DNA of 64,000 bases from Saxibacter everestensis. Lineage in GTDB: Bacteria > Actinomycetota > Actinomycetes > Actinomycetales > Brevibacteriaceae. The stretch is taken from NCBI RefSeq assembly GCF_025787225.1, contig NZ_CP090958.1, positions 1,455,856-1,519,855 on the forward strand, read 5' to 3'. Of this stretch, positions 54,212 through 63,121 are shown piece after piece (positions within the stretch are counted from its first letter, which is position 1; each line of letters opens with the position of its first letter). Both the position numbers and the translations under genes were made by a program. The notes under the pieces were generated by a model that worked only from the letters and a program-made list of their open reading frames with translations, was not told the origin of the DNA and did not search any database.

Positions 54212-55882
54212 CTAGAACACTATCTTCCCTGGGTTCAGGTTCCGCTTAGGATCAACCGATTCGAACAGGCCGCGTAACATGTCCGCTCCCGCCGGGGAAA
54301 GGTCTTGTTCGATCCACGGTGCATGCTCGCGCCCTACGGCGTGGTGGTGGGAGAGGGTGCCGCCATTGTCGATGAATGCCTGCTGGATGGCGGTTTTCAC
54401 TACCTCGTACCGACCGATCGGATCGTTGTCGTCGTGCCGGAACGCGAAAGTGAAGTACAGGCAGGCACCCGAGTGCTCGGAGTGCGAGAGGTGGCACATT
54501 ATCCAGCCCCTGACGCCGATTTCCCGGTAGGCGGCGTTTGCCGCGGCAACGGTGCCGGCATAGAGATCCCGCAGCCTTGACCACGGAGCGGCTGTCTCGG
54601 AGACGTCTGCTGCCGCGCCGCGATCGAGCAGGAAGTCGCGGATGTACGGCGTGTCGAACTTCTTCTGGTCGTAGAGCGTGCCGGGGCCTTTTCCGAGCAG
54701 GATTCCGCCGTGCTTGCGCACAATCTGGCGCACGAGGTTCTTCTCATAGCCGACATGCCGTTTGCTGCCCTCGTAACCGATGAACGACAGGCAGAGCTTT
54801 TCCAGGTCCCACCCTTTGCGTTCGAGGACCTTCATCAGGGCAGCGCTCACCGCGCCGGAGACTTTCTTGCCCTTCTTCCGGGTCGCGAAGGAGAATCCGG
54901 TCTCCCGGGCATCCGATACCCGGGTCACCGATGGGGACGCGTCACTGCTGGCGATCTCCTCCATCGCGGCAAGGCCCGCCTGCCAGTCCGGAAACAGGTA
55001 GCCGAGCACCTGACGCTCGGTGGGCAGCCGATGGATCTGCACGGTCACTTCGGTGATGACGCCGAGCCTGCCTTCGCTGCCCAGGATCATTTCCCGGACA
55101 CTTGGGCCGGTCGAGGTGCCGGGTAGCGGCCGGATGACGAGCGTGCGGCGCGGCACGACGACCCTCAGGCCCCGGGTGATCTCGGCGATGTCGCCATACT
55201 TGTCCGATTGCATGCCCGAGGACCGGGTGGCGACCCAGCCACCCAGCGTGCTGTGCGTGAAGCTGTCGGGGAAGTGGCCCATCGTCCAGCCACGATCGCC
55301 CAGCTGCTCTTCAAGGTCGGGGCCAAGAGTTCCGGCCTGCACCCGGGCCAGCCCGGACTGCTCGTCGACTTCCAGGACCCGGTTCATCCGGCCAAGATCA
55401 AGTGAGATTATCGGGCGGGTTTCCTCGGGGAGTGGCTCCAGACTGCCCGAGATATTGGTGCCGCCGCCAAAAGGAATCAGCACGGCGTCCTGATCGACAG
55501 CGAGATCGACAATCTGCTGTACCTCAGCCTCGGTGCCCGGGTAGACAACGACATCGGGAACGCGTGCGATGCTGCCGTCGCGCAACCGGAGCAAGTCCCG
55601 GATGCTCTTGCCGTAGGTATGGGTGACGCGTTCCAGCCGTTCGGTCGTGACGTGAGCATCCCCGACCAGCTCGGTGAGCCGCGCAAGTTGTGCCGCCGAA
55701 ATCAGCGAGTCGGGAAGCCGGAGCCGGTCAAGATCGGGTGCGTCGATGTCTGCTGGTTCTACTTCCAGGTCGAGGTCGACGGCTTCTTTGACGAAAGGGG
55801 CGAAGTTGGGCTTGTTGTGGTACTCGAATTGGACGCCCTCGACGCCCCAGCCCCACCATTTCATGTGTTTGACCGTGGTCAT
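54212..55882 (-). CDS. Alkylglycerone-phosphate synthase-like FAD enzyme (AGPS)
   Basis: A 556-residue VAO-type flavoprotein. AGPS exchanges the acyl chain of acyl-DHAP for a fatty alcohol and so forms the ether bond. Diagnostic parts are the N-terminal MKWWGWG segment, the FAD motif PFGGGTNISGS, and the C-terminal SHHHAVGREHAPW, the counterpart of the active-site His cluster of eukaryotic AGPS. A peroxisomal signal is absent, as expected. The PlsC and SDR genes precede it on the same strand. Some bacterial relatives may be D-lactate-type dehydrogenases, but the WGWG and HHH features favour AGPS. Confidence 0.88.
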   Translation of the reverse strand: MTTVKHMKWWGWGVEGVQFEYHNKPNFAPFVKEAVDLDLEVEPADIDAPDLDRLRLPDSLISAAQLARLTELVGDAHVTTERLERVTHTYGKSIRDLLRLRDGSIARVPDVVVYPGTEAEVQQIVDLAVDQDAVLIPFGGGTNISGSLEPLPEETRPIISLDLGRMNRVLEVDEQSGLARVQAGTLGPDLEEQLGDRGWTMGHFPDSFTHSTLGGWVATRSSGMQSDKYGDIAEITRGLRVVVPRRTLVIRPLPGTSTGPSVREMILGSEGRLGVITEVTVQIHRLPTERQVLGYLFPDWQAGLAAMEEIASSDASPSVTRVSDARETGFSFATRKKGKKVSGAVSAALMKVLERKGWDLEKLCLSFIGYEGSKRHVGYEKNLVRQIVRKHGGILLGKGPGTLYDQKKFDTPYIRDFLLDRGAAADVSETAAPWSRLRDLYAGTVAAANAAYREIGVRGWIMCHLSHSEHSGACLYFTFAFRHDDNDPIGRYEVVKTAIQQAFIDNGGTLSHHHAVGREHAPWIEQDLSPAGADMLRGLFESVDPKRNLNPGKIVF

Positions 55883-55930
55883 GCTCCCTCTTCTCTAATG
55901 CGTTAACTCTGCCAAGCCGGCGATGACTGT

Positions 55931-56635
55931 CTAGGCGGATAATCCGTCCGGCCACGCGTCGTCTTGCTGGTGTGACTGTGAGGCGCTGTCGAATAGCGCG
56001 CGGACCGTATCCTTCAGGCGCCCGGCGAAGGCTGCGGCGGACTCGCCGGCGCGCGGATGCATCGGCGCGCCGAACACCACCGTGACCGGCTGCCGTCCGC
56101 GGACCGGCCAGCGCGAGCCTCGTGGCATCGCCAGATCGGCGTCAACCAGGGCAACCGGGACACAGGGGATGCGAAGGTTGATGCTCAACGCCGCAGCGCC
56201 GGGCTGGAATTCGGTGACCTGCCGACCGGATGCCCGGGAACCTTCCGGGAACAGCAGGATCGGAACTCTCACCTTCAACAAGCCGCTGGCAACGCCGCGC
56301 CGTGATGATGTTTCGGACCGCTCGACCGGGAAAGCATTGAAGAAGAGTGTGGTGAACAACTTGAGCCACCACTTGTGAAAGAAGTAGTCCGCAGCCGCAC
56401 CTGTCGCGAGGTAGCGCGCGAACCGGCGGGGGAGGGCACCCATCACGAGCGGCGCATCGAGGTGGCTGGAATGGTTGGCGACCGCGATAAATGGCGGCGT
56501 CAACGAGCGGAGATTATCCCTGCCGCGGACCTCAACCCTGGCCAGCGACCAAACCAAGGGCTTGAGCAGCAAACGCTGCGCGACGAAACGGGCACAAGCC
56601 AACGAGGGAGATCGGTAGCGTCGGAAGCGTTGCAT
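55931..56635 (-). CDS. 1-acylglycerol-3-phosphate acyltransferase (PlsC family), second copy
   Basis: A 234-residue acyltransferase with the HX4D motif NHSSHLD and FPEGSRASG. It is shorter than the homologue at 14.1 kb and lacks the Lys-rich tail. The gene lies between the SDR and the AGPS-like genes with small gaps (58 and 48 bases), so all three are probably one operon. It could acylate DHAP or 1-alkyl-glycerol-3-phosphate. Confidence 0.9.
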   Translation of the reverse strand: MQRFRRYRSPSLACARFVAQRLLLKPLVWSLARVEVRGRDNLRSLTPPFIAVANHSSHLDAPLVMGALPRRFARYLATGAAADYFFHKWWLKLFTTLFFNAFPVERSETSSRRGVASGLLKVRVPILLFPEGSRASGRQVTEFQPGAAALSINLRIPCVPVALVDADLAMPRGSRWPVRGRQPVTVVFGAPMHPRAGESAAAFAGRLKDTVRALFDSASQSHQQDDAWPDGLSA

Positions 56636-56693
56636 CTATCTCAAACGGCCTCTCGTTGTCGCGACGGCTGGCAAGAACCTATCAGGAAGCATC

Positions 56694-57500
56694 CTATGGA
56701 CTCGATCTGCCTGCGGAACCTGGACTCGATCTGCCTGCGGAAAGTCTCGCCGAAACCGCCCGAATGACGCTGCGTGGCAGGTGCCGTGCCGCCCAGTTGA
56801 GCAGCGTGAACCGCTTGGACGGCACCGATATCACTTTTCCGCGGGCTGAATCCTTCAGGCACTGCTCGACCACGTCATCTGCGTCCAGCCACAGTTGTGA
56901 CGGGATCTTGGCAGCATTGATGCCGGCACTTTCGTGGAAGTTGGTGCGGACCCAGCCCGGGCACAGCGCGGTCACCGTGACGCCGGTTCCTGCCAACTCG
57001 ACGGCCAGGCCTTCCGAATACGTAGTCACCCAGGACTTCACGGCAGAGTAGGCGCCCATAGCGATCGCGCCGGAGACGCTGGACACGTTGATGATGGTGC
57101 CCCGGCCGCGTTGCCGCATTTCCCTGCCGGCGGTGCCGCCGAGAATCAGCACGGCGCGGCACATGACGTCGAGACCCCGTTCGATCGTCGCGGTGTCCGG
57201 ATCGAGCAGCCGGGTGCGGATGCCGAAGCCCGCATTGTTGACCAAGACGTCGACCGGACGCGCAGGATCGGTGAGCCGTTCGGCGAGCCTGAGCGTCTCG
57301 GCCCGGTCTGCCAGATCGACGGCGAGGGTTTCGACGTTGATGTTCCAGCTGGTGCGCAATTCTGCGGCGACAGCCTCGAGCCGGTCACTGTTGCGGGCCA
57401 CCAGAACCAGGTTGACGCCGCGCTTTGCGAATGCCCGGGCGAAGGCCGCTCCGATTCCCGAATGCCCGCCCGTGACCATTGCCGTCGCCATGGAGTTCAT
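56694..57500 (-). CDS. Short-chain dehydrogenase of the lipid cluster
   Basis: A classical SDR of 268 residues: TGGHSGIGAA, NNAGFG, NVSSVSG and the YSAVK active site. The arrangement with PlsC and AGPS-like genes suggests reduction of acyl/alkyl-DHAP, the role of the SDR DHRS7B in animals; this is inference. The last 15 residues read SAGRSSP twice, the result of a 24-bp direct repeat (56698 and 56722), so the C-terminus was recently lengthened. Confidence 0.88.
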   Translation of the reverse strand: MNSMATAMVTGGHSGIGAAFARAFAKRGVNLVLVARNSDRLEAVAAELRTSWNINVETLAVDLADRAETLRLAERLTDPARPVDVLVNNAGFGIRTRLLDPDTATIERGLDVMCRAVLILGGTAGREMRQRGRGTIINVSSVSGAIAMGAYSAVKSWVTTYSEGLAVELAGTGVTVTALCPGWVRTNFHESAGINAAKIPSQLWLDADDVVEQCLKDSARGKVISVPSKRFTLLNWAARHLPRSVIRAVSARLSAGRSSPGSAGRSSP

Positions 57501-57676
57501 CGTAGACGCTGACTCTGCCGATGTGACCTGGGCCTCACAAATCTGGGGGTGGTCGGACTGGCGTTTGCCCTCGGTCGATAGAGTTTGGCCAGAAGTAGTG
57601 CGCCGTCAACCAGAACGCTCATTGCGTGTGATACCCGGATCCGGGCGTCGCTCCTGTAGAGAATTCGGAATCCGCT

Positions 57677-58549
57677 TTGGTCATAGCCGCTCGCAGTTTG
57701 GATACGGACCCGGAACGCTTCGATGTGCGTGAATTTGCGCGTACGGCGCGGGGAAGCCGCAGAGATTCGCTGCCCTACCGGAAACTAGCCGAGCAGTCGC
57801 TGCCCAGAGCGACCCTGCGACAGTTGCGGTACATGACGCTGATCGAGCGCTACACCCTGTCTCAGCTGCGGAATCTGCTCGTGACACCTTCGCACAAGGA
57901 CGCTTACGTGACGGCGTTCCTGACCAGTTGGGCCTACGAGAAATTTTGGATAGCCGACACGCTCGCCGCTGTTCTGGAAACGCACGGCGTTCCCGGCGAA
58001 GAAATTGCCCTTGCGCCGGACCACACATTTGCCGGCAGCGTTGCCGCGGTGCTGGATCGGCTGGTGCCGATCCGGAATTCGGTCTCGGCCAACCTGATCG
58101 GCAGCGACTTCATCGCCATCCATATGACAGTCGGCCTGCTGGAGGAACGGCTCGGCCAGATCGTGTACGAAGGCATCATCGAGATTGAGAGTGGGGGAGC
58201 GTTGTCGGACGTCGTCGGCGACATCGTGTCCCAGAAGGAACGCCATCTGAAGTTCTATGCCCAGGAAGCCCGCAGTCGTCTGGCCGCGTCCCCGGTAGCC
58301 CGTCGATTAACCCGGCTGGCGTTGCGGCGAAACTGGCTTCCGCTGAGTTTTTCGGCCCAGCCGGCTCAGGAGACTCGACGTGTGCTTACCGATCCGCTAT
58401 CCACGGCCGGTAGCCGGGCAAAAGTAATCGGGTTTGACCAGGAGCTGGCAGCGCTGCCGGGCCTTGTGGGAACCAGGCCGGCGTCCCGACAGCTAAGCCG
58501 GCTCGGCCTGGCGTCGACGCAGCGTCCGAGGAAAGCAGGCGGCGAATGA
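57677..58549 (+). CDS. Ferritin-like protein 1, with degenerate iron site
   Basis: This 290-residue helical protein is a paralogue of the protein at 60961-61755; shared segments include LVTPSHKD, NLxGxDFxAxHM and RHxxFYAxxARxRL. Compared with that paralogue, the first ExxH motif (E77, H80 there) is Lys89 and Ile92 here, and the Glu of the second ExxH is Lys187. Glu57, Glu157 and His190 remain. It probably cannot hold a normal di-iron centre and may be a structural partner. The start (TTG 57677) is uncertain. It overlaps the next gene by four bases. Confidence 0.8.
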   Translation: MVIAARSLDTDPERFDVREFARTARGSRRDSLPYRKLAEQSLPRATLRQLRYMTLIERYTLSQLRNLLVTPSHKDAYVTAFLTSWAYEKFWIADTLAAVLETHGVPGEEIALAPDHTFAGSVAAVLDRLVPIRNSVSANLIGSDFIAIHMTVGLLEERLGQIVYEGIIEIESGGALSDVVGDIVSQKERHLKFYAQEARSRLAASPVARRLTRLALRRNWLPLSFSAQPAQETRRVLTDPLSTAGSRAKVIGFDQELAALPGLVGTRPASRQLSRLGLASTQRPRKAGGE

Positions 58550-60840
58550 GTGATGCAATGCCCCGAACGGCCCTGCCGGCCGCCGGAAATGTTCTGATTA
58601 CCGGCGTCACCGGCTTCCTGGGCCAGGCCGTGCTCGAACGGATCATCTCGTCGATGCCGGACCTGCGGGTCACCGTTCTGATCAGGCTGAAGGGCACGTT
58701 GACCGGGCGAACTCGGCTCAACCAGCTGCTGCGGAAACCCGTGTTCGGGAACTGGGTCGCTCGGGTGGGTGGGCGGGATGCTGCCGAACAGGTGCTCGCC
58801 GAACGGGTCAGCGTGCTCGAGGGAGATCTGCTCAGCGTGCCGAAGCTGCCGGCCGACCTGACGGCGGTGGTGCACAGTGCGTCAACTGTGTCGTTCGATC
58901 CGCCGATCGACGAGGCTTTCTCGACGAACCTCGGTGGCGCTGAGAGCCTGTACCGCGCCCTGGCGGCATCCGGCGGCGCGCCACATGTGATTCATGTGTC
59001 CACGGCTTACGTCGGTGGCCTGCGGAAAGGCGTGGTGGGCGAGGAATCCCTGCGACACACCTCGGACTGGCGCAGGGAAGCGGAGGCCGCCAGGGAAGCC
59101 CGCGGCCTGGTCGAGGCTTCGTCCAGGCGACCGGAAATCCTGAAGCAGGCGATAGCCAAGGCCCGCTCTCGGCATGGCAAGGCCGGCCCACAGGCGATTT
59201 CGTCCGCTGCCGAGGCCAACCGGATCGACTGGGTCAACAAGCGCCTGATCGAGTACGGCCGGACCCGGGCACAAAGCCTCGGCTGGCCCGATGTGTACGC
59301 CTTCACAAAGGCCCTTGGCGAGCGGGTTGCCGAAGAGCTCTGGGCGGAGCAGGGCAACCGGCTTTCGGTGCTCCGGCCGTCGATTGTTGAAAGCGCGCTG
59401 CGGCATCCGTTCCCCGGCTGGATCGACGGCTTCAAGGTTGCCGACCCGCTGATCCTTGCCTACGGGCGCGGCGTACTGCCGGAGTTTCCCGGTCTGCCGG
59501 ACAGCGTGCTTGACATCATTCCGGTTGATTTCGTTGTCAATGCGATCCTGGCGCTGGTAGAGCAGCCGAGCGAGCAGGACGGCGCACGTTACTTCCACCT
59601 TGCCTCGGGCGCAAGTAATCCATTCTTGTTCCGGGAGATGTACGAGAATGTGCACAGCTACTTCCGGAGCAATCCTGTGCCGGATGGCGATGGGGCGCAT
59701 ATCCAGGTGCCGACCTGGAACTTCCCCGGCCGGCATCGGATCGAATCGAAGCTGCGCACCAGCGAACGAACCAATGCCATTGCCGAAAGAATGCTGACCA
59801 GCCTGCCCGGTACTGTCCGGACCAGAAAATGGATGCAGGGCGTGATGGTTCAACAGAACGACCTGGAAATCCTGCGACATTACGCGGATCTGTATCAGCC
59901 GTACACGCAGGCAGAGATCATTTACGACGACGCGAATACCCGGGCGTTGCACCAGTCACTCTCGGACGGCGCGAAGACCGAGCGTGGATTCGATGTGCGG
60001 GAGATCGATTGGACGACGTACTTTCAGCAGATCCATTTTCCCGGGATCACCAAGTCCATGCGCGCATTCAGTTCGCGTCCCGCTTCGGTGCCCGCCGGTG
60101 ACGTGGTTCTGAAACGAGCGCCGGACACCCTGGCGATCTTCGACCTTGAAGGCACGGTCGTCTCGTCGAACACCGTCGAACACTACTTGTGGATCCAGCT
60201 GGCGATGCGATCGAGACTTGGCTGGCTCGGCGACGTCGCCGACCTGGCACGTTCGGCCCCCGGCTACCTCAGAGCGGAGGAGCGGGACCGCGGCGAGTTC
60301 ATCCGGACCTTCATGCGTCGCTACAAGGGCCTCGACGTGGAAAAACTGCGGAAGTTGATGAGCGGTGAAATCGGAGATCTGCTGATGTCCCGGGTGCGAC
60401 CGGACGCGTTGCGCAGGATCGACGAACATCGGGAGGCCGGTCACCGGACCGTTCTGGTAACCGGCACGATCGACGCGATTGTCACACCGCTGGAGCCCTT
60501 CTTCGATGAGGTGGTTGCGGGGCGGATGCACGAGGCCGACGGCAGGTGGACCGGCTACCTGGCGACGCCGCCACTTGTCGACGAGGCACGGGCGGCCTGG
60601 CTGGAGCGTTATGCCCGGGAATGCGGCGCGGACCTGGCGCGGTCATATGCCTACGGCGACTCGCACGCGGATCTGTCCTGGCTCCAACTGGTGGGCAATC
60701 CGCATGTTGTCAATCCCGATCCCGGGCTTTACCGCCACGCTGTCCAGGCACGATGGAAGGTCGAGGAGTGGGCACAGCGCCCGCTGACCCGGCTCGACTC
60801 GTTGCGCTCCGGTTTCCAGATCAGGGCGGACCGACATTGA
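58546..60840 (+). CDS. Fatty acyl reductase fused to HAD-IB phosphatase-like domain
   Basis: A 764-residue fusion. Residues ~14-400 are an extended-SDR fatty acyl-CoA reductase (male-sterility type): GVTGFLG at 20-26, VHSAS, and YAFTK as the catalytic pair. Residues ~529-725 are a HAD-IB domain with nucleophile motif DLEGT (D533; the second Asp is Glu535) and YGDSHADLSW as motif IV. The enzyme would make fatty aldehyde or alcohol; the HAD part could dephosphorylate a lipid intermediate, though the Asp-to-Glu change may lower activity. It overlaps ferritin-like gene 1 by four bases. Confidence 0.88.
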   Translation: MSDAMPRTALPAAGNVLITGVTGFLGQAVLERIISSMPDLRVTVLIRLKGTLTGRTRLNQLLRKPVFGNWVARVGGRDAAEQVLAERVSVLEGDLLSVPKLPADLTAVVHSASTVSFDPPIDEAFSTNLGGAESLYRALAASGGAPHVIHVSTAYVGGLRKGVVGEESLRHTSDWRREAEAAREARGLVEASSRRPEILKQAIAKARSRHGKAGPQAISSAAEANRIDWVNKRLIEYGRTRAQSLGWPDVYAFTKALGERVAEELWAEQGNRLSVLRPSIVESALRHPFPGWIDGFKVADPLILAYGRGVLPEFPGLPDSVLDIIPVDFVVNAILALVEQPSEQDGARYFHLASGASNPFLFREMYENVHSYFRSNPVPDGDGAHIQVPTWNFPGRHRIESKLRTSERTNAIAERMLTSLPGTVRTRKWMQGVMVQQNDLEILRHYADLYQPYTQAEIIYDDANTRALHQSLSDGAKTERGFDVREIDWTTYFQQIHFPGITKSMRAFSSRPASVPAGDVVLKRAPDTLAIFDLEGTVVSSNTVEHYLWIQLAMRSRLGWLGDVADLARSAPGYLRAEERDRGEFIRTFMRRYKGLDVEKLRKLMSGEIGDLLMSRVRPDALRRIDEHREAGHRTVLVTGTIDAIVTPLEPFFDEVVAGRMHEADGRWTGYLATPPLVDEARAAWLERYARECGADLARSYAYGDSHADLSWLQLVGNPHVVNPDPGLYRHAVQARWKVEEWAQRPLTRLDSLRSGFQIRADRH

Positions 60841-60917
60841 CAATTCACTTTCCAGATCAGGGCCGAAAAGCCGATGAGCAGTCGAACCTCGGAAAGCCTG
60901 CAGCCGAACCTCGGAAA
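60813..60917. repeat. Two nested short direct repeats at the reductase gene end
   Basis: TTTCCAGATCAGGGC occurs at 60813-60827 and 60849-60863 (36 bases apart), spanning the reductase stop. CGAACCTCGGAAA occurs at 60883-60895 and 60905-60917 (22 bases apart). The second copy runs into AAGGAGGAAGG, 40 bases before the next start codon. Confidence 0.85.
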
Positions 60918-60960
60918 AGGAGGAAGGACCGCCTGAACGCCTCGGCGGTACAACGCAACC

Positions 60961-61755
60961 ATGGCATTTGACATCGACAAGTACGCCCGGACTTCCGTCG
61001 CCGTGAACTGGGAGGACCTTGACTTCGAGCAGTTCCGCAGCAATCCACTGCCGGAGGAATCACTGCGCAGCCTGAGCTATATGTGCGACATCGAGTATCA
61101 CACCGTCTGCTACCTGCGAGACATGCTGGTGACACCGTCACACAAGGATCCTGAGGTCAACGCGTTCATGACCATGTGGAACCGCGAGGAGTTCTGGCAC
61201 GGCGAGGCGCTGGCAGCCGTGCTGAAGATGCATGACATCGTGATTGACTTCGATCAGCTGAAAGCGAAGCGGCTGAAGCTCGGCTGGAAAGACAGGCTCG
61301 ACCCGGTGAAGCAGTCCGTGCTTTCGAATCTGGTGGGTAAGGATTTCATGGCTGTGCACATGATCTGGGGTGCGGCCAATGAATGGTCGGCGGTGGCTGC
61401 ATACAACCGGCTGGCCGACCTCGAGGGCCACCCGGTGCTCGCGGACCTGCTGAAGCGGATAGCCAAGCAGGAAGCGCGGCACGTCGCCTTCTATGCGACC
61501 CAAGCCCGTGCCCGGCTGGATGGGAACAAGAAAGCGCAGACACTGGCCCGGTTCGCATTGCGAAAGTTCTGGGGTCCGGTGGGTTCCGGGGTGATGCCCG
61601 ATTCCGAGGTGACGCACGTAATGGGTCATCTGTTCGAGGGCGCCGACGGTCGGCAGGCGGCGGCGGTTATCGACTCGCATGTAGCGAAGATGCCGGGAAT
61701 GAACGGCCTGACGATTGTGCAGGACGCCCTGGACGCACGCGGCATCGCTGCCTAA
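60961..61755 (+). CDS. Ferritin-like di-iron protein 2, with intact iron site
   Basis: This 264-residue helical protein has a full set of carboxylate/histidine ligands for a di-iron centre: Glu45, Glu77-x-x-His80, Glu141 and Glu171-x-x-His174. Such proteins activate oxygen to oxidise or deformylate substrates. Its place beside a fatty acyl reductase and an AGPS-like gene suggests a fatty aldehyde or ether-lipid substrate. The exact reaction is unknown. ATG 60961 has no close ribosome site; a strong GGAGG lies some 40 bases upstream. Confidence 0.82.
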   Translation: MAFDIDKYARTSVAVNWEDLDFEQFRSNPLPEESLRSLSYMCDIEYHTVCYLRDMLVTPSHKDPEVNAFMTMWNREEFWHGEALAAVLKMHDIVIDFDQLKAKRLKLGWKDRLDPVKQSVLSNLVGKDFMAVHMIWGAANEWSAVAAYNRLADLEGHPVLADLLKRIAKQEARHVAFYATQARARLDGNKKAQTLARFALRKFWGPVGSGVMPDSEVTHVMGHLFEGADGRQAAAVIDSHVAKMPGMNGLTIVQDALDARGIAA

Positions 61756-61886: not shown

Positions 61887-62087
61887 ATGCAGAGTAAGGT
61901 TACGGTCTTCTTGCATATCCTGATTGCGGGAATGTGTCTCCTGATTGCGTATGCCGGGGTCAGCATGTGGCAGGAAGCAGACCTGGGAGGTGCTTTTGGC
62001 ATCGCAGTCCTCGTAGGCACTCTGTTTGCCTACATGTCGCTTTATGGTTTTCTCCGGTCCGCAGTGTCTGGCAAGCAGGATCGCTGA
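61887..62087 (+). CDS. Small two-helix membrane protein inside the inserted segment
   Basis: A 66-residue protein with two hydrophobic segments (about residues 5-27 and 35-57) and a basic tail. ATG 61887 has GAGGAAGAG upstream. I recognise no family. The gene lies wholly between the two 37-bp repeats, in a stretch richer in A+T at its left end, and its end overlaps the lipid-kinase gene on the other strand by 46 bases. Confidence 0.6.
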   Translation: MQSKVTVFLHILIAGMCLLIAYAGVSMWQEADLGGAFGIAVLVGTLFAYMSLYGFLRSAVSGKQDR

Positions 62088-63121
62088 AGTTCCGACGCTC
62101 TTGCAACGTGACTGCGCAATCCGGGCCATGTTGTACCTACCGGCAGCATGACCCGGATGGCGTCTGGTAGATGGTCGATCTGCGCAGCGGTGGCCTCCCC
62201 GATGGATTCCCCGTCAGCCTGAAAAGCCATTGGACCCTCGAAGTCGAGCGTGACTGAGTGCGCTTCGCGGTAGGAGAGCGTCGTGTTGTGGCTCGAATCC
62301 CTTTGCCGCCGGCGTTGGTTCCGGCCGGCAGGAAGGTTTTTCCGGACGAGCCAGGCCATGAATCGTACGAGGTTGAGCGGCGCTAGTGAACGCATCGTGA
62401 GCACATCGAAGCTACCCCGGGCAGGATGAGCATTTGGCAGGATGCTGATCCCGGTCGGCAGCCGACCGCAGCTTCCGGTCATCACCGTATGGGCCTGTTG
62501 CCAGCCCTGATCCTGGCCGTCGAGTCGGATCCGGACCCGGCTGGAGGCGCGTGAACGCAGGCTGGTGATGATTGCGGGAATGTAGGCGGGCCAGCGCAGG
62601 GCGTTCTTGTGCTTGGCGCTCGTGTTGCGAACCATGTGTTCATCCAGGCCGAATCCGGTGATCACGAAGAACCGCAGGCTTTCCAGGCCGCCGTCAGCTC
62701 TGGTGAGCTCGATTCGGCCGGCACCGACCGAAAAGGGTTGACCGGCAAGGGCACGACGCAGCGCGCGGGTGTAACCGCGGGACCGCAATCCCAGATTGGT
62801 GGCGAACAGGTTCGTGGCGCCGACCGGAATGATCAGGAGTGGGACCTGCGTGTCGACCAGTTCCGAGGCCACCGCCCTTACGGTTCCATCGCCTCCCGCC
62901 GCAATGATCAGGTCGACCTCCTGGGCGAGCGCCTTATGCGCAGCACCGGCTCCGGCATCGTGGCGTTCGGTCTCCAGCCATACTGACGGCCGCCAGTCTC
63001 GATCTCGCTCAACAGCAGCGATGGCCCGACGCAGACGCGGCTGGTTCACCTTGGTGGGGTTGTAGATGACCGCTGTGCGGAGGCGACGAGAGCCAGTTGG
63101 TTCAGGGCGGGAGTCCGGCAT
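62042..63121 (-). CDS. Diacylglycerol/lipid kinase family protein with replaced C-terminus
   Basis: A 359-residue DagK-type kinase: AVIYNPTK at the N-terminus, the GGDGTV nucleotide motif near residue 95, and the usual two-domain layout. The conserved ending LPDAIRVMLPVG is followed by about 30 further residues read from the inserted segment. The detached copy at 61759-61795 has an immediate stop, so the ancestral protein ended there. The kinase probably still works since the change is terminal. It may phosphorylate diacylglycerol or a related neutral lipid. Confidence 0.88.
   Translation of the reverse strand: MPDSRPEPTGSRRLRTAVIYNPTKVNQPRLRRAIAAVERDRDWRPSVWLETERHDAGAGAAHKALAQEVDLIIAAGGDGTVRAVASELVDTQVPLLIIPVGATNLFATNLGLRSRGYTRALRRALAGQPFSVGAGRIELTRADGGLESLRFFVITGFGLDEHMVRNTSAKHKNALRWPAYIPAIITSLRSRASSRVRIRLDGQDQGWQQAHTVMTGSCGRLPTGISILPNAHPARGSFDVLTMRSLAPLNLVRFMAWLVRKNLPAGRNQRRRQRDSSHNTTLSYREAHSVTLDFEGPMAFQADGESIGEATAAQIDHLPDAIRVMLPVGTTWPGLRSHVARASELQRSCLPDTADRRKP
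62136..62172. repeat. 37-bp direct repeat, right copy (inside lipid kinase gene)
   Basis: The right partner of 61759-61795, with one mismatch, lying in the coding sequence of the lipid kinase. The bases outside the two copies are unrelated, so only 37 bp were duplicated around a 340-bp segment. Confidence 0.95.

Follow-up and report, generated by a model that had tools for sequence, protein, structure and literature searches.

Does an actinobacterium encode its own route to ether lipids, and what would a pair of ferritin-like proteins do in such a route? The question is raised by a locus of six genes in a stretch of 64,000 nucleotides of Saxibacter everestensis DNA (contig NZ_CP090958.1, positions 1,455,856 to 1,519,855; hereafter the window). 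The genes code for a homologue of alkyl-dihydroxyacetone-phosphate synthase (AGPS), a PlsC-type acyltransferase, a short-chain dehydrogenase/reductase (SDR), a fatty acyl reductase fused to a HAD hydrolase (FAR-HAD), and two ferritin-like proteins, FER1 and FER2 (Table 1). To judge from these sequences, the cluster very probably encodes an ether-lipid pathway of the dihydroxyacetone-phosphate (DHAP) type. The best explanation of the whole locus, which we consider somewhat probable, joins this pathway to a FER1/FER2 pair that would form a vinyl ether.

The identity of AGPS was weighed against that of a lactate or hydroxyacid dehydrogenase, the alternative named in a first-pass annotation of this DNA. 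The best match in the PDB was the Dictyostelium AGPS (2uuu; 411.6 bits, E 5e-122) and the mammalian AGPS structure scored 306.4 bits, as against 84.8 bits (E 4.9e-23) for the nearest lactate dehydrogenase. PF01565 (FAD_binding_4) and PF02913 (FAD-oxidase_C) were both above the Pfam cut-off. The HHH motif at residues 512-514 and Y476, aligned with the Dictyostelium enzyme, are kept in all 74 AGPS relatives read (here and for the other core enzymes, residue conservation was read from 120 loci after filters); we take these to be active-site residues with a catalytic role. Two other FAD (flavin adenine dinucleotide) oxidases of the same genome carry GEHG at the apparent HHH position, as judged by eye, and AGPS is the sole full-length match in its own genome. 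These data strongly support an alkyl-DHAP synthase homologue that is predicted to form the ether bond. It is very improbable that the protein is instead a D-lactate or 2-hydroxyacid dehydrogenase in a cluster unrelated to ether lipids: the NCBIfam models that speak for it, of the glcD-like type, match far below their cut-offs (at best 130.8 against 567.9 bits), the PDB scores together with the invariant HHH and Tyr speak against a lactate dehydrogenase, and FAR-HAD, PlsC and SDR are conserved as partners of AGPS.

The remaining core enzymes were assigned in the same way. In FAR-HAD, a fatty acyl reductase (about residues 1-515) precedes a HAD-IB hydrolase (residues 529-727; 60130-60726). The reductase matched NAD_binding_4 (PF07993) with 153.9 bits and Sterile (PF03015) with 37 bits against a cut-off of 35.4, and Y251 and K255 of its YxxxK motif are present in 83 of 85 relatives, the other two being gaps. 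D533 and T537 of the hydrolase, recognized by PF12710 and TIGR01490, are likewise found in 83 of 85 with two gaps. Where a second catalytic Asp would be expected, however, 65 of the 85 relatives carry Glu, with His in 8, Asp in 7, Ala in 2 and Gln in 1, which makes a phosphatase activity less sure. A stop codon lies within the FAR-HAD match in 23 of the 71 genomes that carry it, so that FAR and HAD, which are fused in the window, are probably two adjacent genes in those genomes. PlsC (PF01553) keeps the His and Asp of HX4D in 82/82 relatives read, and is proposed as a candidate DHAP or alkyl-glycerol-3-phosphate acyltransferase. The SDR (PF00106, adh_short) keeps the Tyr and Lys of YxxxK in 78/78 relatives read; its best NCBIfam model was mycolate reductase (NF040690), which it matches with 158.1 bits where the cut-off is 380, and we propose it as a candidate (acyl/alkyl)-DHAP reductase.

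These results bear out the earlier claim that the cluster holds counterparts of all four steps of ether-lipid synthesis in animals, since AGPS, FAR, PlsC and SDR are each recognized by their domains and conserved active sites. With regard to the animal pathway (FAR1, GNPAT, AGPS, acyl/alkyl-DHAP reductase and PEDS1), the locus in the window differs in its arrangement as two bacterial operons, in the FAR-HAD fusion and in the presence of FER1/FER2, which lack the PEDS1-type domain PF10520. In the proposed pathway, FAR would convert an activated fatty acyl group, branched in most cases, to a fatty alcohol and PlsC would acylate DHAP. AGPS would then exchange the acyl group for the fatty alcohol to give alkyl-DHAP, which the SDR would reduce to alkyl-glycerol-3-phosphate; acylation would follow, and the HAD domain may take off the phosphate. 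We infer these core steps because of the homology of the enzymes and their conserved active sites.

Whether the genes belong together was examined in 297 genomes from the order to which the host belongs, searched with FER2, AGPS and FAR-HAD. FAR-HAD was found in 71 of them (46 of a close type, 25 of a distant one), AGPS in 85 (62 at 600 bits or more, counted as orthologues) and FER2 in 53 (42 strong). All 46 genomes with the close FAR-HAD type hold an AGPS orthologue, and in all 46 it lies within 8 kb; the remaining 16 genomes with an AGPS orthologue have the distant FAR-HAD type. FER2 occurs in 36 of the 46 genomes with this core of FAR-HAD and AGPS, and in 6 genomes that lack the strict core (Fisher p 5.5e-31 over the 297 genomes, a value that ignores kinship). 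The core was found without FER2 in 10 of the 46 genomes (the loci of G082, G261 and G152 were read), which suggests that the FER pair is an add-on, as expected for a tailoring step.

When named genomes were scanned with an alignment of FER2, 278 relatives came up, of which the 80 best were retained as loci, and the whole set was defined as seven parts within 10 kb. It is present in 63 of these 80 loci, in several gene orders, among them loci of Herbiconiux, Labedella, Plantibacter, Subtercola, Salinibacterium, Ruania, Phytoactinopolyspora, Streptomyces and other genera. Nine of the 17 incomplete loci consist of FER2 only; seven of these are from Jiangella, where a search for AGPS and FAR-HAD located both at other sites of the genome. 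A separate reading of 20 neighbourhoods selected from FER2 matches found the whole set in 7, again in several gene orders, FER1 and FER2 adjacent without the core in 11, and FER2 alone in 2. That the set is kept through altered gene orders and in several families looks like one function. The neighbourhood comparison called for by the first-pass annotation thus showed genes that are conserved together.

Six presumed di-iron ligands, E45, E77, H80, E141, E171 and H174, are kept in all 101 FER2 sequences. By contrast, all six were found in none of 88 FER1 sequences, H80 and E171 being absent from every one. These counts include at least one duplicate sequence (L047 = L081), and the ligands were assigned from the sequence pattern, not from a metal-bound structure. 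The order E, ExxH, E, ExxH in FER2 matches the six-ligand pattern of soluble acyl-ACP (acyl carrier protein) desaturases. Taken together, the counts look like an active/inactive pair: FER1, which has no ligand set yet is kept beside or near FER2, reads as a ligand-less subunit and is proposed as the partner of FER2. The two ferritin-like genes had been annotated alike; judged by their residues, FER2 alone resembles a di-iron protein, FER1 having lost ligands. Bacterial multicomponent monooxygenases also combine active and inactive, ligand-less ferritin-like subunits. FER1/FER2 resemble them in this pairing and differ in that no gene for an additional subunit, a coupling protein or a reductase is found among the genes neighbouring the pair. 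A distant FER2 homologue, FER3, carries all six ligands in 7/7 sequences read; it occurs in 22 of the 297 genomes, 20 of which hold the distant FAR-HAD type.

The fold of the two proteins was predicted with AlphaFold2 (pLDDT, the predicted local distance difference test, 88.5 for FER2 and 87.6 for FER1). For both models the best match was a soluble acyl-ACP desaturase (FER2: Z 18.1, root-mean-square deviation 3.2, 237 residues aligned, about 15% identity; FER1: Z 17.9, deviation 2.8, 220 aligned). R2-like oxidases lie about 2 Z units below the desaturases, at Z 15.6 and lower for FER2, and the best Foldseek match of FER2 had an E value of 1.2e-4 and a TM score of 0.58. The FER1 model also matched two phenol hydroxylase chains of unchecked subunit identity, 2inp_C (Z 16.6) and 2inn_D (Z 16.4), and 6d9f (Z 16.1), a ferritin-like protein that deformylates aldehydes. 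Aldehyde-deformylating oxygenases were absent from the 50 FER2 fold matches listed, which excludes nothing. At about 15% identity, the fold supports a di-iron oxidase or desaturase and not a particular substrate. FER1 matched no Pfam family. FER2 scored 23.0 bits with rubrerythrin (PF02915; cut-off 22.8) over just 41 residues (139-179), and 20.0 bits with FA_desaturase_2 (PF03405), under the cut-off of 22.7; 18 of 19 A1 members match PF03405 at E ≤ 0.01.

This likeness brings in a rival explanation, namely that the FER pair is a desaturase of acyl chains, bound to ACP or CoA, which travels with ether-lipid genes. FER2 shares both its fold and its ligand pattern with enzymes such as the castor desaturase and DesA2. 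It differs from them in its low identity, in a PF03405 score below the cut-off, in its ligand-less paralogue as a partner and in its tight linkage to AGPS and FAR-HAD. We consider an acyl-chain desaturase quite unlikely, and the lipid data considered below bear on it from both sides.

If the pair acts on an ether, the end product would be a plasmalogen, and the known enzymes for this step were therefore sought. PF10520 (Lipid_desat, the PEDS1/CarF family) matched neither FER1 nor FER2. It was over the cut-off in 0 of the 297 genomes and had no match in 15 set-bearing genomes, and CarF/PEDS1 was rejected on these counts as the missing vinyl-ether step; no control genome matched the model either, so that the absence of CarF is likely and these counts do not prove it. 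PF09989, which we take to be a PlsA-type domain, was found in 0 of the 15 set-bearing genomes, three Subtercola included, and in 4 of 14 controls. The anaerobic PlsA/PlsR route would share the proposed end product with the present set and differ in its marker; it is described as converting the ester of a diacyl lipid (PMC9702350). A review treats myxobacteria as exceptional among aerobes in having plasmalogens, and places bacterial CarF in one myxobacterial suborder and in Leptospira (PMC9131029). According to the same review, the aerobe Myxococcus xanthus has, besides CarF, FAR-like, acyltransferase, HAD, NAD-dependent and AGPS parts in the elb operon and MXAN_1676-1674, and these five kinds of part are shared with the window. 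The FAR-like part sits there in a multidomain protein, ElbD, with ACS (acyl-CoA synthetase) and ACP domains; the AGPS-like MXAN_1676 belongs to a separate operon and has a minor effect, and it is CarF that makes the vinyl ether.

Published fatty-acid tables offer a link to the product. Dimethyl acetals (DMAs), called indicative of plasmalogens in one report (PMC7472656), are given for aerobic Subtercola (PMC5945732) and Kineococcus (PMC7472656). Subtercola vilae DB165 is the only strain for which genome and lipids could be matched strain by strain. Its genome (L095) holds the whole set, and its column in PMC5945732 gives 17.0% iso-C16:0 DMA, 3.2% a-15:0 DMA and 1.9% a-17:0 DMA, all by MIDI assignment. 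The same paper gives DMAs for S. frigoramans, S. boreus and S. lobariae, little for Agreia and none for Frondihabitans, in which 14:0 2-OH is a major component (PMC5945732). A published table for Lacisediminihabitans profunda has a trace of C14:0 2-OH and no DMA. The whole set is also present in S. lobariae CGMCC 1.12976 (L089) and S. boreus (L086, L087 and L105), where the link to the lipids is at species level. DMAs of S. boreus and S. frigoramans are reported as confirmed by gas chromatography-mass spectrometry (GC-MS) in PMC7472656.

Some of these acetals appear under another name. In Kineococcus rubinsiae, the peak called C14:0 2-OH by MIDI was identified as a-15:0 DMA by GC-MS (2.9%), and MIDI is stated to recognize DMAs solely with its anaerobe database (PMC7472656). 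For S. boreus DSM 13056, one table lists 10.4% 2-OH C14:0 and no DMA (PMC9287328) and another 11.0% a-15:0 DMA (PMC5945732); from these two values we deduce the same misnaming. S. lobariae is a complication, with 14:0 2-OH at 10.3 and a-15:0 DMA at 9.7, the DMAs being given for another growth temperature (PMC5945732). The C14:0 2-OH of MIDI tables of these bacteria may be anteiso-C15:0 DMA, and plasmalogens may be under-reported in aerobic actinobacteria.

We propose that FER2 and FER1 form a mixed complex, comparable to the active and inactive subunits of multicomponent monooxygenases, which would most likely use O2 to desaturate the ether chain at 1'-2' and so lead to plasmalogens. The substrates, the formation of the complex and the vinyl-ether step are what we infer from the comparisons above. 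A vinyl-ether (delta-1') desaturase is the most economical reading of the linkage, the fold and the published DMAs, and the pair may be such an enzyme, a view that we hold tentatively and at a little less than even odds. With somewhat more reserve, we suggest that FER1/FER2 might constitute a third, independently evolved route to plasmalogens: a soluble, O2-dependent, two-subunit di-iron desaturase, unrelated to the membrane-bound CarF/PEDS1 and to the anaerobic PlsA, that would account for the DMAs reported from Actinomycetota that live in air, including some that were recorded as 2-hydroxy fatty acids.

Several observations weigh against a role of the pair on ethers. FER1/FER2 occur without FAR-HAD or an AGPS orthologue in G044, G075 and G245, which are of one genus, and in Leifsonia flava, Leifsonia sp. 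Leaf264 and Agromyces terreus; G075 has an AGPS homologue of 37% identity. The corresponding stand-alone pairs (L138, L143, L120, L053, L054 and L056) come from Leifsonia, Agromyces and one further genus. In this clade the pair cannot act on ethers of the present pathway. Their six FER2 sequences form a single clade with a support of 100/100 in the FER2 tree, so that a single event, be it a loss or a new role, would suffice to explain them. The same genomes hold other NAD_binding_4 proteins, a family that also matches 13 of 14 controls. Furthermore, Haloactinopolyspora alba and a metagenome-assembled genome (L111, L124) have FER2 and FAR-HAD without an AGPS match, and five genomes (G183, G196, G028, G057 and G072) combine FER3 and the distant FAR-HAD with no AGPS at 1e-60. 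In addition, FER2 or FER3 tracks FAR-HAD in 58 of 63 genomes and AGPS orthologues in 50 of 63, and the closer tie to FAR-HAD fits a role on an alcohol or aldehyde as well. Together, the stand-alone clade, the carriers without AGPS and the tracking of FAR-HAD leave room for a role on aldehydes, alcohols or acyl chains.

The closer tie to FAR-HAD supports a second rival, in which the ether-lipid pathway is retained and the substrate of the FER pair is not the ether but the aldehyde or alcohol that FAR makes, for example in aldehyde-deformylating oxygenation or in aldehyde removal. FER3 adjoins FAR-HAD in G183 and G196, and 6d9f is among the fold matches of FER1. Acyl-ACP desaturases nevertheless outrank it for the FER1 and FER2 models alike, and the clade that has FER1/FER2 only is without FAR-HAD too. 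Moreover, on this view the DMAs of Subtercola would either depend on a different vinyl-ether enzyme or be free aldehyde. We regard this explanation as rather unlikely.

The lipid tables also hold points against vinyl-ether formation. The DMAs may come in part from free aldehydes. A second table gives S. vilae with 1.3% C17:1, 0.8% summed feature 8 and no DMA, and other Subtercola with large unsaturated components (PMC9287328). Herbiconiux daphne CPCC 203386 (L071), which holds the whole set, is reported with 25% C17:1 from an analysis with the MIDI database ACTIN1, and the main text of that report gives neither a DMA nor a 2-OH acid (PMC10011130). The unsaturated chains in some carriers (PMC9287328, PMC10011130), like the clade that has the pair and neither FAR-HAD nor an AGPS orthologue, would suit the acyl-chain desaturase introduced above. 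Against it stands the S. vilae DB165 column, which lists no unsaturated acyl chain beside a single DMA at 17% (PMC5945732).

Among the papers listed by our searches of the open-licence literature of PubMed Central, we found none that names genes for the DMAs of aerobic actinobacteria, and none that connects the present genes with the vinyl-ether role. The gene set provides a concrete candidate that can be deleted, offers a marker for ether-lipid makers across Actinomycetota and, through the FER pair, suggests a new type of desaturase. The C14:0 2-OH of fatty-acid tables of these bacteria may accordingly be worth reading as a possible plasmalogen signal.

Table 1. Genes and intergenic region of the putative ether-lipid locus, in window positions.
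Feature	Position	Strand	Basis or remark
AGPS, alkyl-dihydroxyacetone-phosphate synthase homologue (FAD), 556 aa	54212..55882	-	PF01565+PF02913; PDB 2uuu
PlsC-type acyltransferase, 234 aa	55931..56635	-	PF01553; HX4D
SDR, 268 aa	56694..57500	-	PF00106; YxxxK
Divergent intergenic region, 176 bases	57501..57676		presumed promoters for both operons
FER1, ferritin-like, 290 aa	57677..58549	+	without metal ligands; predicted fold
FAR-HAD fusion, 764 aa	58546..60840	+	PF07993+PF03015+PF12710, TIGR01490
FER2, ferritin-like, 264 aa	60961..61755	+	six presumed di-iron ligands; predicted fold
YegS/DAGK-type lipid kinase, possible accessory gene	62042..63121	-	PF00781

The layout of the locus agrees with the two divergent operons described in the first-pass annotation, and all six open reading frames were recovered in place and on the expected strands. 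Spacings of 48 bases between AGPS and PlsC, 58 between PlsC and SDR and 120 between FAR-HAD and FER2, together with the overlap of FER1 and FAR-HAD by 4 bases, fit this arrangement; SDR and FER1 diverge from the 176-base region. No sigma-70-like site was found in that region, and scans for promoters and terminators yielded fewer sites than shuffled sequence did. FER1 begins with a TTG codon at 57677, and the position of this start is unsure. Among 24 genomes of the same family examined, FER2 was found only in G019. In the FER2 tree, the protein of the window is nearest to sequences of Microbacteriaceae and Ruaniaceae, with no well-supported sister; it is possible that the host gained its FER2 horizontally.

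At the edges of the locus, a membrane fatty-acid desaturase (PF00487; 52989-54089) that converges on AGPS was rejected as a member of the cluster, a homologue (E<1e-15) being present in 0 of the 80 loci. The YegS/DAGK-type kinase adjoins FER2, and a homologue at the same threshold lies before or after the set in 18 of the 80 loci. Other genes accompany the set elsewhere. Subtercola vilae (L095:7402-9836) has a LarA-like protein (Lar_N, PF09861) and a second PlsC between HAD and FER2. Downstream of the distant FAR-HAD type in L150, L151 and L154 lie a zinc alcohol dehydrogenase, a LarA-like gene and a PlsC, the first two assigned by Pfam in L151 and L154.

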